From contig JANWZJ010000011.1 of assembly GCA_025054525.1 (NCBI GenBank), forward strand, positions 1 to 40,632: a stretch of 40,632 bases of DNA. Reading direction: 5' to 3'. Below are positions 554 through 21,648 of the stretch, piece by piece (the stretch's first letter is position 1; each line of letters opens with the position of its first letter). Both the position numbers and the translations under genes were made by a program. The notes beneath the pieces were generated by a model that had not been told where the DNA came from, did not search any database, and saw only the letters and a list, made by a program, of their open reading frames with translations. This DNA comes from Bacteroidia bacterium (GTDB lineage Bacteria; Bacteroidota; Bacteroidia; SpSt-205).

Positions 554-1747
554 TCACTCCAGCCCCGCTTCTCGCAAAATCCCCCGAGCAATCACAAGCT
601 GTTGAATCTCCGAAGTCCCTTCTCCTATCGTACAGAGTTTGATATCCCGATAAAACTTTTCTACGGGATAATCTTTGATGTAACCATACCCACCAAAGAC
701 TTGTACAGCTTCGTTGCAGATTTTTACACCTATCTCGCTGGCATAATACTTAGCCATCGCGGAATACCGCGTAACAGGCTCTCCTTTATTCTTGAGATAG
801 GCAGCTCGGTAGGTGAGGAGTTCCGCAGCAGCAATTTCCATGGCCATATCGGCGAGTTTGAAAGCTATTGCTTGATGCTCTATGAGGGGCTTGCCAAACT
901 GCTGGCGCTGTTTAGCATATTGTAGGGCCGCCTGATAAGCCCCTCTTGCTATGCCCAAAGAAAGAGCAGCGATGGAGATTCGCCCGCCATCTAATACCTG
1001 CATAGCCTGGTGAAAGCCCTCCCCTACCTCCCCAATGCGCTGGCTATCCGGGACCCACACGCCGTCCAAACCTATCCAACTTGTTTCGCTGGCTCGCATG
1101 CCCAGTTTATCTTCTTTCTTGCCAGGCACGAGTCCAGGGGTTCCCCTCTCAATAATAAATGCCGTAGCATTGCGAGAGGTGCGACGCTCGCCCGTACGCG
1201 CTATGATTACATATACATCCGCCGAAATACCATGGGTGATAAAGTTTTTTTGCCCTGTAATTCGCCAGCCCCCTTTTTCGGGGACGGCTACTGTATCCAT
1301 ATTAGAGGCATCTGAACCGGTATTCGGCTCTGTAAGGGCCCATGCGCCTATCCATTCGCCTGAAGCCAACCGAGGCAGGTACTTCTGTTTCTGCTCTTCG
1401 TTTCCATGGTAATAGATATGCCCTGTGCATAGCGAGTTATGCGCGGCTACCGACAGCCCAAAAGCCCCATCTACTGCCCCCAGTTCCATCAGAGCAGCTA
1501 CATATTCAAAGTATGATAAGCCTGCGCCTCCATATTCCTGGGGAATGAAGATTCCCAGTAAGCCTAACTGCCCAGCTTCTTTCAGCACCTCTATAGGAAA
1601 CGTTTGGGTCTCGTCCCAGTGCCGCACATGGGGCTTGATGCGCTCCTCGGCAAACTTGCGAGTGATTTCCTGGACTTGGCGGACGGTCTCGGGCAGCTCT
1701 AATGAAAAGCCTGTTGCGTCAGCCGCCTCTACAGCAGGGTTCATCAT
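554..1747 (-). CDS. Acyl-CoA dehydrogenase
   Basis: ORF 554..1765. Motifs GAWALTEPNTGSDASNMDT, YAKQRQQFGKP, QVFGGYGYIKDYPVEKFYRDIKLCTIGEGTSEIQ. Start trimmed to MMNPAVEAAD, which overlaps the upstream stop (ATGA). Confidence 0.93.
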   Translation of the reverse strand: MMNPAVEAADATGFSLELPETVRQVQEITRKFAEERIKPHVRHWDETQTFPIEVLKEAGQLGLLGIFIPQEYGGAGLSYFEYVAALMELGAVDGAFGLSVAAHNSLCTGHIYYHGNEEQKQKYLPRLASGEWIGAWALTEPNTGSDASNMDTVAVPEKGGWRITGQKNFITHGISADVYVIIARTGERRTSRNATAFIIERGTPGLVPGKKEDKLGMRASETSWIGLDGVWVPDSQRIGEVGEGFHQAMQVLDGGRISIAALSLGIARGAYQAALQYAKQRQQFGKPLIEHQAIAFKLADMAMEIAAAELLTYRAAYLKNKGEPVTRYSAMAKYYASEIGVKICNEAVQVFGGYGYIKDYPVEKFYRDIKLCTIGEGTSEIQQLVIARGILREAGLE

Positions 1748-3429
1748 CGCAAAGTTAAGGAACAAATTTTACCATGCGTTGAAGCGGCAGGCTTATAGTC
1801 GGGTTCGGCGCGAAGAGCCGCCTCCAAATGCCCACACGCTTCCTGAGAGCGCCCCAGCTGAGCTGCAAAAAAAGCAGCGTTATAGTGGAACTGAGGATTC
1901 CAAGGCTGTACTTGGCATAACGAGTCCAGAAGGTGGTAGGCATGCTCTGTGGAAATTCGCCCCAGTTCATACCCTAAAAGCACATACCGAAAGGAAGCCT
2001 CCGGGTAAGCTGGCGCATCTCGCATGAGCTCACGCCACACAGTGAATGCTTCTTCTTTTTTCCCCGCACTCTCTAAAAGAAGACCGTAAATTTCCCGCAT
2101 TAGCAAAGAACTATCCCGCTGTATTGCGCGCTGCGCATAAGGTAGGGCTTGGGCGGCTTGGCCCTGCAAGAGAAGAAACTGAGCTTTCACCCCATCCTTT
2201 AGATACTGAGGGGGAAAATGACTCAAAGTCTCCAGCACCCAAGGTTCGGTTTTTTCTTGGCTATACCATTTGAGGTAGGCTTCGGCTATCCAAGCAGAGT
2301 CAGGGTGGGGTTCGGTGGCGCAGAGGAGTTTGGGGCGCAAAAGAGGCTTTGTTTCCCCCCTCCGTACTACCCGAATATAATGGTCTGTAAAGGTGGTATG
2401 CGGTATATCGCTGGAAGTACCTTTGGGCATGTGGCACCCTATACAACCACCCGAGGAATGTGCGGGATTCCGACAGCCCTGCTTATGACAGCTCAAGCAC
2501 CGCTGCTCATAAGAAGGCACTGCTTGGATAGGATGGGGATGATGGCAGGAAGTACAAGTAAGTTTGCCTTTCTGGAAGCAGGCAGAGCGTAAAAGTCGTT
2601 CCGCATGTGAAGCTATCCCAAAACTCCCCAGCTCTGCCCGCTCCGGTAGAAAAATCGCATAATAGGCAGATAAGGTATCTCCCGGTTTCCAACCCTGGCG
2701 CTTTTCTACGGTGATTCCTTCCAAGTGGCACCGACTGCATACGTCCATTTGACGAAGGGGCTGCCATTTGCTCCAGAAATAGGTAGTATCCTGCGGATTC
2801 TGCACATGATAGCTGCCAGGCCCATGGCAAGATTCACAACCTATTGCCCCTCCTATTCGGGTATAACGATTGTAAGTGTAGGGGATAGGCTGCCAGCCGC
2901 TTGCATGGCAAAAGAGACACGCAGGCTGTATTTCTCGGGAGAAGCGACTGTTTTTTCCCTCGTCGTAGCCCGGAGAGAGCCCCCACCGCCGAACACGCGC
3001 ATACCATGTAATCGGTGCCTCGTAGAGAAAGCCATTCCGCCAGAGCAAGTAAGAGCGCGTTTGATGACCTGAACCGATGATGAAGTCTATTTTTTCTCGG
3101 CGAAGGTACAGGGTGTCTTTCCCTTGAAGCCGCCACTCGTAGATGTAGAGCGAGTCGCCTTCTTGGACTGCTCGGTAGTAGAAGTTGCGATGGGAGTCAT
3201 ACACAGGAGGCTGGCTAAAATCTTCTATGAAACCCTGTGAAGCGTGAGCGGGTGAGAGGGAGTGGGCCTTCCAGGTGCGCCGGTAAGCCTGGTAGATATC
3301 CGCATGGCAAGTGGCACAAGTGCTATCTCCGATATACTTTGCGGGGGGAAGGGCGATTTCATGCGCAGGGGAGCAGGAGAAATAGTAAAGCAAGGCGAAC
3401 ACCCCCAGCCCACCGATGAGCCTGCGCAC
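1744..3429 (-). CDS. Multiheme cytochrome c / TPR lipoprotein with seven CXXCH motifs
   Basis: CATCH, CLFCH, CESCH, CSRCH, CTSCH, CLSCH and CIGCH, followed by TPR-like repeats; lipoprotein-like signal VRRLIGGLGVFALLYYFSC; GTG start. Confidence 0.85.
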   Translation of the reverse strand: MRRLIGGLGVFALLYYFSCSPAHEIALPPAKYIGDSTCATCHADIYQAYRRTWKAHSLSPAHASQGFIEDFSQPPVYDSHRNFYYRAVQEGDSLYIYEWRLQGKDTLYLRREKIDFIIGSGHQTRSYLLWRNGFLYEAPITWYARVRRWGLSPGYDEGKNSRFSREIQPACLFCHASGWQPIPYTYNRYTRIGGAIGCESCHGPGSYHVQNPQDTTYFWSKWQPLRQMDVCSRCHLEGITVEKRQGWKPGDTLSAYYAIFLPERAELGSFGIASHAERLLRSACFQKGKLTCTSCHHPHPIQAVPSYEQRCLSCHKQGCRNPAHSSGGCIGCHMPKGTSSDIPHTTFTDHYIRVVRRGETKPLLRPKLLCATEPHPDSAWIAEAYLKWYSQEKTEPWVLETLSHFPPQYLKDGVKAQFLLLQGQAAQALPYAQRAIQRDSSLLMREIYGLLLESAGKKEEAFTVWRELMRDAPAYPEASFRYVLLGYELGRISTEHAYHLLDSLCQVQPWNPQFHYNAAFFAAQLGRSQEACGHLEAALRAEPDYKPAASTHGKICSLTLR

Positions 3430-3430
3430 G

Positions 3431-3502
3431 AGCCATCTGGCGGATTCGAACCGCCGACCTGCTGATTACGAATCAGCTGCTCTACCGCTGAGCTAAGATG
3501 GC
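3431..3502 (-). tRNA. tRNA-Thr(CGT), no encoded CCA
   Basis: GCCATCTTAGCTCAGCGGTAGAGCAGCTGATTCGTAATCAGCAGGTCGGCGGTTCGAATCCGCCAGATGGC-T; full cloverleaf, anticodon CGT. Confidence 0.95.
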
Positions 3503-19381: not shown

Positions 19382-19576
19382 CTAAAAGATAGAATAAATT
19401 CCTCGCATGACGCTGCTAAAGAGCAGGTCAATAAGCCCAATCACGATAGCAATAAGGAGGCTACCCACTAACACCGTAACGGTAGTACTGAAAAGCTGAG
19501 AGAAAGCCGGCCATTCCACTTTCTCCCGCCATTCTTGTGAGTAATCCCTCCAAAGTTTTGCGAGTTTTTCTCGCAT
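19382..19576 (-). CDS. secE: Preprotein translocase subunit SecE
   Basis: MREKLAKLWRDYSQEWREKVEWPAFSQLFSTTVTVLVGSLLIAIVIGLIDLL; the track ORF runs back into tRNA-Trp. Confidence 0.92.
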   Translation of the reverse strand: MREKLAKLWRDYSQEWREKVEWPAFSQLFSTTVTVLVGSLLIAIVIGLIDLLFSSVMRGIYSIF

Positions 19577-19578
19577 CG

Positions 19579-19651
<73 letters not shown>

Positions 19652-19660
19652 GAGAAGGGG

Positions 19661-19668
19661 CAAAGTTA
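19661..19668 (-). promoter_or_regulatory. Candidate -7 element TAACTTTG for tRNA-Trp/secE
   Basis: TAnnTTTG 9 nt upstream of the tRNA-Trp 5' end; its first three bases are the tuf TAA stop codon. Confidence 0.5.
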
Positions 19669-20853
19669 GTCTAAAATCTCAGTGATTTGACCTGCCCCTA
19701 TCGTCCTCCCCCCCTCGCGTATAGCGAAGCGGAGGTTTTTCTCCATCGCAATAGGATAAATGAGTTCTACTTCTATGCTCACATTATCCCCGGGCATAAC
19801 CATAGGTACATCAGCTGGGAGCTTGATAGTACCCGTTACGTCTGCCGTGCGGAAGAAAAACTGCGGGCGGTAGTTATTAGTGAAAGGGGTGTGGCGACCA
19901 CCTTCCTCTTTGGTCAAGATATATACTTCTGCTTTGAAGCGTTTGTGAGGCGTTATGGTATTAGGGGCGCATATGACCATACCCCGACGCACTTGATCCT
20001 TGTCAATTCCCCGAAGTAGAAGCCCTACATTATCTCCCGCTTGCCCTTCATCTAGCAGCTTGCGAAACATTTCTATGCCTGTAACGACAGAGGTCATCTT
20101 CTCTTCGCGCAGCCCCACGATATCTACTGGTTCGTTGAGCTTGATGCGTCCCCGCTCTATCCTTCCGGTAACGACCGTACCCCGTCCAGTAATAGAGACT
20201 ACATCTTCCACAGGCATCAAGAACGGCTTATCTATGATACGCTGGGGCGTAGGGATATAAGTATCTAAGGTCTGGATAAGTTCTATCACTTTAGCTTCCC
20301 ATTTGGGGTCTCCATTGAGGGCACCCAGGGCAGAGCCGCGAATAATCGGCGTCGTATCCCCAGGGTAGCCATAGAAGTTGAGAAGGTCGCGAATCTCCAT
20401 TTCTGCCAGCTCTAACAGCTCCTCATCATCTACCATATCTACCTTATTCAGGAAGACGATGATGTAAGGAACGCCTACTTGACGAGCGAGCAGAATGTGT
20501 TCTCGCGTCTGCGCTTTGGGCCCATCTGTAGCTGCCACGACGAGAATCGCCGCATCCATCTGCGCAGCCCCCGTAACCATGTTCTTGACGTAGTCAGCGT
20601 GTCCAGGGCAGTCTATATGCGCATAATGCCGCTTGTCGCTATTATACTCTACATGCGCAGTATTGATGGTAATACCTCGCTCTCTTTCCTCGGGTGCATT
20701 GTCTATGGAGTCATAAGTGCGCTCCTGTGCCAAGCCCTTTTTGGAGAGAACTTTCGTAATAGCGGCAGTGAGCGTAGTCTTGCCGTGGTCTACATGGCCG
20801 ATAGTGCCTACATTCACATGTTCTTTATCGCGGACGAAAACCTCCTTGGACAT
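19666..20853 (-). CDS. tuf: Elongation factor Tu
   Basis: [49 protein letters not shown]. Confidence 0.99.
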
Positions 20854-20854
20854 A

Positions 20855-20919
20855 TGGTGCTATTGCTCGGACTCGAACCGAGTCATCCCTCACAAAAGGG
20901 AGGCCCCTGGCTCAATAGC
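20855..20919 (-). ncRNA. tRNA-like element in the tuf leader: compact (62 nt + CCA), minimal D-arm, Thr(UGU)-like
   Basis: GCTATTG-AGCCAGGGGCC-TCCC-TTTTGTGA-GGGA-TGA-CTCGGTTCGAGTCCGAG-CAATAGC-A-CCA. Perfect 7-bp acceptor, perfect 5-bp T-stem with canonical TTCGAGT loop, encoded CCA; only 11 nt between acceptor and anticodon-like stem. Confidence 0.75.
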
Positions 20920-20928
20920 AGGTCGGTG

Positions 20929-20960
20929 CAAAGGTAGAGAAAATCAGGCAAATCCCCAAA
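20929..20960 (-). promoter_or_regulatory. tuf promoter: -33 TTTG, 20-nt spacer, -7 TACCTTTG
   Basis: ATTTGGGGATTTGCCTGATTTTCTCTACCTTTG; -7 lies 9 nt upstream of the tRNA-like 5' end. Confidence 0.7.
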
Positions 20961-20962
20961 TC

Positions 20963-21574
20963 CTACCGCCGAGAAAAGTAATACGCCGCCCGCAGCATAA
21001 ACCATGCGGGATTGATGCGTCCCTTCCGCTTAGACTTAATGTTGATGAAGCTGTAGGAGGAGCGCACCTCTACAGAAAATACATGATCTCCCTCCTGAGA
21101 AAAACCTAACCCTGCCAGAAGGGAACCTGCAAACTTGCTATAACTGCTTGCGTTTCGGAGTGCGGAGCCCTGTTCCAGACGCACCCGAGAGCTGAGGAGA
21201 ATATCAGACTGGATGCCCACACTAGCGCTAAGCCCTCCCCCTTCACGACCGAGCTTTAGCCACTGGGTGCGCACATAAAGGGGAATCTGCAGCGTAGAGA
21301 TGCGGTGGGTAGTGCGCCCAGCATAAGCATTTACGAAAGTATTGTCCTCTTGGCGCCAGCCTGCAAATGAAAAGAGAATATCCCCCCCTACCGCTGCGTA
21401 TTCGGTGAAAGGCTTTTCCACCGAGACTCCACCCCCCAGACCGACCACTACGTAGTCTTTGTCCATTTCTCCTTTCGCAGAGGTAACCTGAGGGCAGAGC
21501 ACACCTCCGATTCGCACGCCTTCTTGCGCCCATGTCAGAGAGACTACCCCAGCTATCGCCAGCAGGTATCGCAT
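20963..21574 (-). CDS. Outer-membrane beta-barrel (porin-like) protein
   Basis: Signal peptide MRYLLAIAGVVSLTWAQ, alternating beta-strand pattern, C-terminal FMLRAAYYFSRR. Confidence 0.65.
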   Translation of the reverse strand: MRYLLAIAGVVSLTWAQEGVRIGGVLCPQVTSAKGEMDKDYVVVGLGGGVSVEKPFTEYAAVGGDILFSFAGWRQEDNTFVNAYAGRTTHRISTLQIPLYVRTQWLKLGREGGGLSASVGIQSDILLSSRVRLEQGSALRNASSYSKFAGSLLAGLGFSQEGDHVFSVEVRSSYSFINIKSKRKGRINPAWFMLRAAYYFSRR

Positions 21575-21648
21575 GGAGCCATCGGCCGGGATCGAACCGG
21601 CGACCTCTTCCTTACCAAGGAAGTGCTCTGCCGCTGAGCTACGATGGC
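21574..21648 (-). tRNA. tRNA-Thr(GGT) with encoded CCA; the last A is also the A of the downstream ATG
   Basis: GCCATCGTAGCTCAGCGGCAGAGCACTTCCTTGGTAAGGAAGAGGTCGCCGGTTCGATCCCGGCCGATGGC-T-CCA; anticodon GGT. Confidence 0.95.

Follow-up and report, generated by a model that had tools for sequence, protein, structure and literature searches.

We found a tRNA-like fold that forms nearly the whole leader of tuf, the gene encoding EF-Tu, in a Bacteroidia bacterium and that ends a few nucleotides before the tuf start codon. Compensatory base changes across 11 species of the genus make it close to certain that this fold is conserved. The element is an RNA family new to Rfam and to the literature searched, and it stands before a highly expressed bacterial gene. 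The window, as used below, is the whole stretch of 40,632 nt that was analysed.

The tRNA-like element and its conservation

The element occupies positions 20919-20858 of the minus strand (62 nt to A73) and is followed by CCA, one further nucleotide and the ATG of tuf (19666..20853, minus strand; EF-Tu of 395 aa, 91-96% identical to that of ten other genus members). On this strand it opens with the 5' strand of an acceptor-like stem (GCUAUUG, 20913..20919) and an A at 20912, continues with a D-arm-like mini-hairpin (GCC-AGG-GGC, 20903..20911) and a C at 20902, and carries in the place of the anticodon arm the hairpin UCCC-UUUUGUGA-GGGA (DNA: TCCC-TTTTGTGA-GGGA; 20886..20901). The triplet TGA (20883-20885) separates this hairpin from the T-arm CUCGG-UUCGAGU-CCGAG (20866..20882), after which come the 3' strand of the acceptor-like stem (CAAUAGC, 20859..20865) and the discriminator A73 (20858) with the tail CCAU, the two together at 20854..20858. 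Within the tail CCA occupies 20857-20855 and a T at 20854 adjoins the ATG (20853-20851), A73 lying 4 nt upstream of the start codon. The acceptor stem, T-arm, hairpin and A73 described in an earlier sequence-only reading of this DNA were each located where that reading had placed them; they belong to the minus strand, a strand that the reading had not named, and the size of 62 nt and the CCA ending 1 nt 5' of the tuf start codon were borne out as well.

Upstream of the element, a -7 promoter box TACCTTTG of the type TAnnTTTG was identified at 20929..20936 (minus strand) together with a possible -33 box TTTG (20957-20960) at a distance of 20 nt from it. Each of the 11 genus members has an element built alike, flanked on its 5' side by a TAnnTTTG box and on its 3' side by the tuf ATG; the first acceptor base follows the box by 11 nt in ten members and by 9 nt in the window. 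Both the TAnnTTTG consensus and the position of its G at -5 are taken from published work (PMC7366714, PMC6847099). By this rule the tuf transcript would start at a purine 7 nt before the element, in the window 5 nt before it, at the G at 20924, which precedes the element with the pentanucleotide GACCU (20920..20924, minus strand); in 11/11 members the base five positions after TTTG is a purine. The tuf leader would then measure some 70-85 nt and be structured nearly throughout, unlike the leaders of most genes of the genus. At 20924-20929, and at the same place in the tuf loci L038-L047, most sequences resemble C(A/G/C)(C/G)(C/T)GC and are more alike than a spacer needs to be.

To compare the element within the genus, tuf was sought in 40 related genomes and the leaders of the 11 sequenced genus members were examined. 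They share a tRNA-type acceptor of 6-7 bp, broken by mismatches in some members, a T-arm with a UUCRANY loop, and a tail NC(U/C) that runs into the AUG. Double-sided changes affect acceptor pairs 3-7 (pair 3 UA/CG; pair 4 AU/GC/GU/CG; pairs 5 and 6 CG/UA/UG), with pairs 3-6 remaining paired in nearly all of the 11 species. Paired cells make up 92% of the total over the 11 sequences, compared with 37-52% in slid versions of the alignment, and 12 of 20 pairs are changed on both sides, a result as good as which was obtained in 0 of 500 shuffles (shuffled mean 6.4). The core alignment took the fixed T-arm and D-arm as its guide and the acceptor counts are thereby anchored; the counts for the middle hairpin, in which all four modelled pairs covary, are flattered because this part was aligned by hand. 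In the D-arm-like mini-arm 97.7% of cells are paired in the 11 members, with one compensatory change. The bases UUCGA of the T-loop are invariant (11/11), as is C74, and the T-loop stands 12 nt from base 73 in eight members and 11 nt in three.

The sequence-only reading had proposed a cis-acting tRNA mimic constituting the whole tuf leader and had named compensatory changes in the acceptor and T stems as its test, and the covariation supports it. Two of its details hold only in part. The encoded CCA is present in the window species, the only one with C75, and the other ten members read NCT at this place (encoded CCA in 1/11). The D-arm is indeed reduced to a mini-stem here; simple decay does not describe it, relatives having GCTC-GGG(G)-GAGC (4 bp, 3-4 nt loop).

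RNAalifold, applied to the hand-made core alignment, recovered the cloverleaf without a given structure. On a MAFFT alignment of the raw leaders, which misplaces the acceptor, it yielded no cloverleaf, and folding of single sequences gave the cloverleaf or most of it in only about half of the members. A lower folding energy of tuf leaders in the genus than in other Bacteroidia was dropped as evidence because the genome is GC-rich and other genes of the window behave similarly.

A functional but unusual decoding tRNA would account for the cloverleaf-like fold and for the CCA of the window species. The hairpin in the anticodon place, however, varies in the relatives between 3 and 9 bp, its loop has anything from 3 to 12 nt, and neither the loop nor any triplet in it is conserved, so that a 7-nt loop on a 5-bp stem with a conserved anticodon was not found across the 11 members. 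In the complete genome G006, moreover, every amino acid is already served by 44 other tRNAs. With so freely varying a hairpin and CCA in one member of 11, a role in decoding was rejected in practice, and we regard its probability as negligible.

Kinship with tRNA-Thr(GGU) and distribution

Pairwise alignment of the 11 elements with the 37 tRNAs of the window's genome placed tRNA-Thr(GGU) first or joint first for nine of them, at a mean score of 36.1 compared with 27.2 for the next tRNA. An intact tRNA-Thr(GGU) is located in the window at 21574..21648 (minus strand), and such a gene persists about 0.06-1.0 kb upstream of the element in 10 of the 11 loci. The same tRNA is the upstream neighbour of tuf in a second family belonging to the same order and, with few exceptions, in the remaining Bacteroidia loci examined. 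The simplest history would be that the element arose as a tandem copy of tRNA-Thr(GGU) which lost decoding, and the old synteny of tRNA-Thr(GGU) with tuf would explain why the mimic is found at this gene.

This kinship is also what a decaying, functionless tRNA pseudogene would display. Such a relic is very improbable, since it is contradicted by the covariation and would hardly retain compensatory changes, an invariant T-loop core and a fixed promoter spacing in 11 diverged species. Moreover, a normal tRNA occupies this position in none of the genus members, which rules out the alternative, raised with the sequence-only reading, of a normal tRNA that has merely decayed in the window species.

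Standard searches with ARAGORN and Rfam called the four true tRNAs of the window and did not call the element, which likewise stayed below the gathering cut-off of the tRNA family (RF00005). No Rfam family was matched at E<=1 in a 161-base scan of the window leader or at the element in ten genus leaders. A covariance model built from nine leaders detected the two withheld from training at scores of 55.6 and 47.0 bits. In each genus member its top match is the tuf leader and true tRNAs rank next; within the tuf loci the second-ranked match is tRNA-Thr(GGU) at 34-44 bits. In a survey of 395 Bacteroidia genomes E<=1e-7 was reached by the 11 members of the genus alone and the element was absent in the 384 others; the sister genus G011 falls outside this survey, the 5' end of tuf being missing from its assembly. 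There is one copy per genome in the genus and the mimic stands in front of tuf only. A scan of about 770 kb for further mimics gave only chance-like matches, although it demanded 12 nt from the T-loop to base 73 and can therefore miss members. Our literature search, in which older work on tufB was thinly covered, found no report of a tRNA-like tuf leader.

Start codons beside promoters and tRNA ends

The distance from TAnnTTTG boxes to start codons was 2-9 nt in 71 of 90 cases in G006 (400 kb) and in 59 of 86 in the window's genome (about 356 kb), with a sharp mode at 4, compared with 11 of 65 and a mode of 20 in the control Bacteroidia genome G033. With a stricter box, the difference from the control gave Fisher p values of 4e-12 for G006 and 4e-9 for the window's genome. 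The same short distances were found in 15 of 16 cases in the sister genus G011 and in 10 of 17 in the second family. The start codon was taken by script as the first in-frame one after the box, which biases these counts to short distances, but the same procedure gave no such peak in the control. At a distance of 4, and with the G of the box at -5, the first transcribed base would therefore be the A of the AUG. On the strength of these spacings the genus appears to be mainly leaderless. Spacing of this kind (mode 4) was seen in G000, G006 and the sister genus G011 and is rare in other Bacteroidia. In Flavobacterium johnsoniae, in which the G of TAnnTTTG lies at -5, 87% of leaders exceed 10 nt, and leaderless messengers make up 5.5% in F. 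psychrophilum (PMC6847099, PMC9723704). The anti-Shine-Dalgarno sequence of G006 is intact (the usual ACCTCC). As a separate observation, the 16S 3' end of the control G033 (L276, G033:C6) has an altered anti-Shine-Dalgarno region, GGAACATCTCATTTT, in comparison with ACCTCC in G006.

True tRNAs occupy the same position in front of several genes. In the window, always on the minus strand, an open reading frame for an outer-membrane beta-barrel (20963-21574) starts 2 nt past base 73 of tRNA-Thr(GGU) and overlaps its CCA; secE starts at 19576, 2 nt past the discriminator of tRNA-Trp (19578..19651); and the GTG of an open reading frame for a cytochrome/TPR protein (1744-3429) lies 1 nt past the discriminator of tRNA-Thr(CGU) (3430..3502), a pair also kept in G006. 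The gap between tRNA-Trp and secE is 2-3 nt in 11/11 genus members and 4 in the second family; elsewhere it is at least 6, usually 13-25 or more. Counting open reading frames of 120 codons or more, we found a start codon 0-6 nt past the tRNA for 11 of 37 tRNAs in the window's genome and 9 of 44 in G006, compared with 0 of 39 in G033 and 1 of 304 at other tuf loci. The mirror test, performed on the antisense 5' side, gave 0 for the window's genome, 1 for G006, 0 for G033 and 3 for the other tuf loci. Ten orthologous tRNA-gene pairs are common to the window's genome and G006, and the genes led by tRNAs include secE, ligA (DNA ligase), dxr, bL25, tig (trigger factor), fbp (fructose-bisphosphatase) and prs (PRPP synthetase). 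Start codons a few nucleotides past tRNA ends, above chance and conserved, are the mark of mitochondrial-type organization and were found in this genus. That start codons lie at tRNA ends and beside promoters throughout the genus is well supported at the sequence level.

Among the true tRNAs of the two members C74 is encoded in 34 of 37 and 43 of 44, and the complete CCA in 2 and 3, respectively. Since nearly all carry C74 and lack an encoded CCA, 3' maturation by the RNase Z route would be the norm. RNase P RNA is present in 11/11 members. The RNase Z gene is near full length in nine of them and in two pieces in a tenth, with the motif HLHADH in both sequences inspected, the matches scoring below the curated NCBIfam cut-off; G008, an assembly of 83% completeness, yielded no RNase Z match long enough to be useful. 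At G007:C6:124386-125280 RNase Z is split in two frames, by an assembly error or a real frameshift, in an assembly that is 81% complete.

Possible functions and relation to known systems

Enzymes that process tRNA ends read the acceptor, the T-arm, the distance from the T-loop to base 73 and C74, and do not read the anticodon arm or CCA. The element has kept the former and has left the anticodon arm and CCA free to vary, which fits processing and not decoding. We consider it an even chance that a relic tRNA has been kept here as a processing mark, whose excision by RNase P and RNase Z leaves a near-leaderless tuf mRNA. Of the two functions offered by the sequence-only reading, EF-Tu autoregulation and mRNA processing, the latter fits best. 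Transcription would start 5-7 nt upstream of the element, which would fold with its acceptor and T-arm stacked; RNase P would trim its 5' end and RNase Z would cut after base 73, freeing an RNA of about 62 nt. The remaining tuf mRNA would have a leader of 3-4 nt (CCAU-AUG in the window), suited to leaderless initiation like the messengers of genes led by true tRNAs. Overall this would amount to mitochondria-like tRNA punctuation in which a tRNA mimic provides the mark. An encoded CC hinders many RNase Z enzymes, and the CCA tail of the window species for this reason counts against the RNase Z cut. The low scores of the RNase Z matches, the lack of a usable one in G008 and the restriction of the mimic to tuf also weigh against this reading. 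A promoter beside the ATG, the arrangement of most genes here, would, furthermore, suffice for a leaderless tuf; that 11 species have nevertheless kept the element may point to an added function. It is conceivable, and here we are only tentative, that the lineage excises tRNAs and the tuf mimic to obtain leaderless essential messengers and that EF-Tu synthesis is thereby tied to tRNA supply, because pre-tRNAs and the tuf transcript would be in competition for the enzymes that process tRNA.

The acceptor/T-arm half of tRNA is the part contacted by EF-Tu, whose tight binding to tRNA requires a free CCA end carrying an amino acid. Excess free EF-Tu could bind this half of the element and block initiation 4 nt downstream. 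The retained half matches the contacted part, the mimic is found at tuf only with its fold adjoining the start codon, and in Salmonella, according to the part of PMC6134099 that cites Brandis 2016, tufB is autoregulated and mutations lie close to its start. However, an internal element with NCU offers no free charged CCA end, true tRNAs hold the same position before many genes unrelated to EF-Tu, and the choice of tuf is already accounted for by the synteny with tRNA-Thr. We thus hold autoregulation by EF-Tu to be unlikely.

A comparably low probability is given to a leader that remains uncut and promotes translation or protects the 5' end, as yjdF or cis-tRNA leaders may do. Tests of such leaders provide experimental precedent: in vitro, tRNA-like leaders increased translation 2- to 6.3-fold, an effect that depended little on ACCA, and ribosomes are bound by the yjdF aptamer in its liganded state (PMC9142559). 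In addition, the bases that make up the elbow of tRNA, GG and UUCGA, are conserved in the element, although its D-loop, at 3-4 nt, is rather short to form such a contact. The constructs of that precedent have a Shine-Dalgarno sequence and a spacer after the tRNA; here only 3-4 nt separate the fold from the start codon and the ribosome would therefore clash with an uncut fold. Most promoters of the genus, moreover, point to leaderless initiation.

The tRNA-like domain of tmRNA keeps acceptor and T-arm, has a reduced D-arm and carries another helix in place of the anticodon arm. The element shares all these features, but it has about 62 nt, lies in cis on an mRNA and is without a conserved charging end or a tag reading frame. 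The thrU-tyrU-glyT-thrT-tufB operon likewise places a tRNA-Thr immediately before tuf, an arrangement seen in Salmonella and in the Bacteroidia loci; there a working tRNA is followed by a separate tuf leader, whereas here the pseudo-tRNA is itself the leader. The autoregulatory leaders of ribosomal protein genes in Bacteroidia are alike in being structured leaders of genes for the translation machinery; the text of PMC7247131 mentions neither tuf nor tRNA, and EF-Tu occurs in its reference list only.

Mitochondrial tRNA punctuation and the tRNA-like leader of yjdF are the functional systems closest to the element, which is assigned to neither. The yjdF riboswitch likewise is a tRNA-derived, tRNA-like fold beside the start codon in a bacterial mRNA leader (PMC9142559). 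Its ligands are azaaromatic compounds, bound in an A-rich four-way junction, and it possesses a Shine-Dalgarno platform. The element has neither of these; it is also shorter and belongs to another gene and another phylum, and the yjdF family model gave no match at E<=1 at the element in ten leaders. In animal mitochondria messengers are bounded by tRNAs, start codons come right after tRNA 3' ends and the products are near-leaderless, with some mRNA junctions lacking a tRNA (PMC8601606). Here, by contrast, the setting is a bacterial chromosome in which most tRNAs retain a promoter each, punctuation is limited to some of the genes, the cutting is predicted and the mark at tuf is a mimic instead of a true tRNA. 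The element points to a lineage in which promoters and tRNA ends, in place of leaders, fix the start codons. If the cutting is true, the balance between a tRNA-binding factor and tRNA, an old question, becomes directly testable, and the genus would provide a chromosomal bacterial counterpart of mitochondrial-style punctuation.
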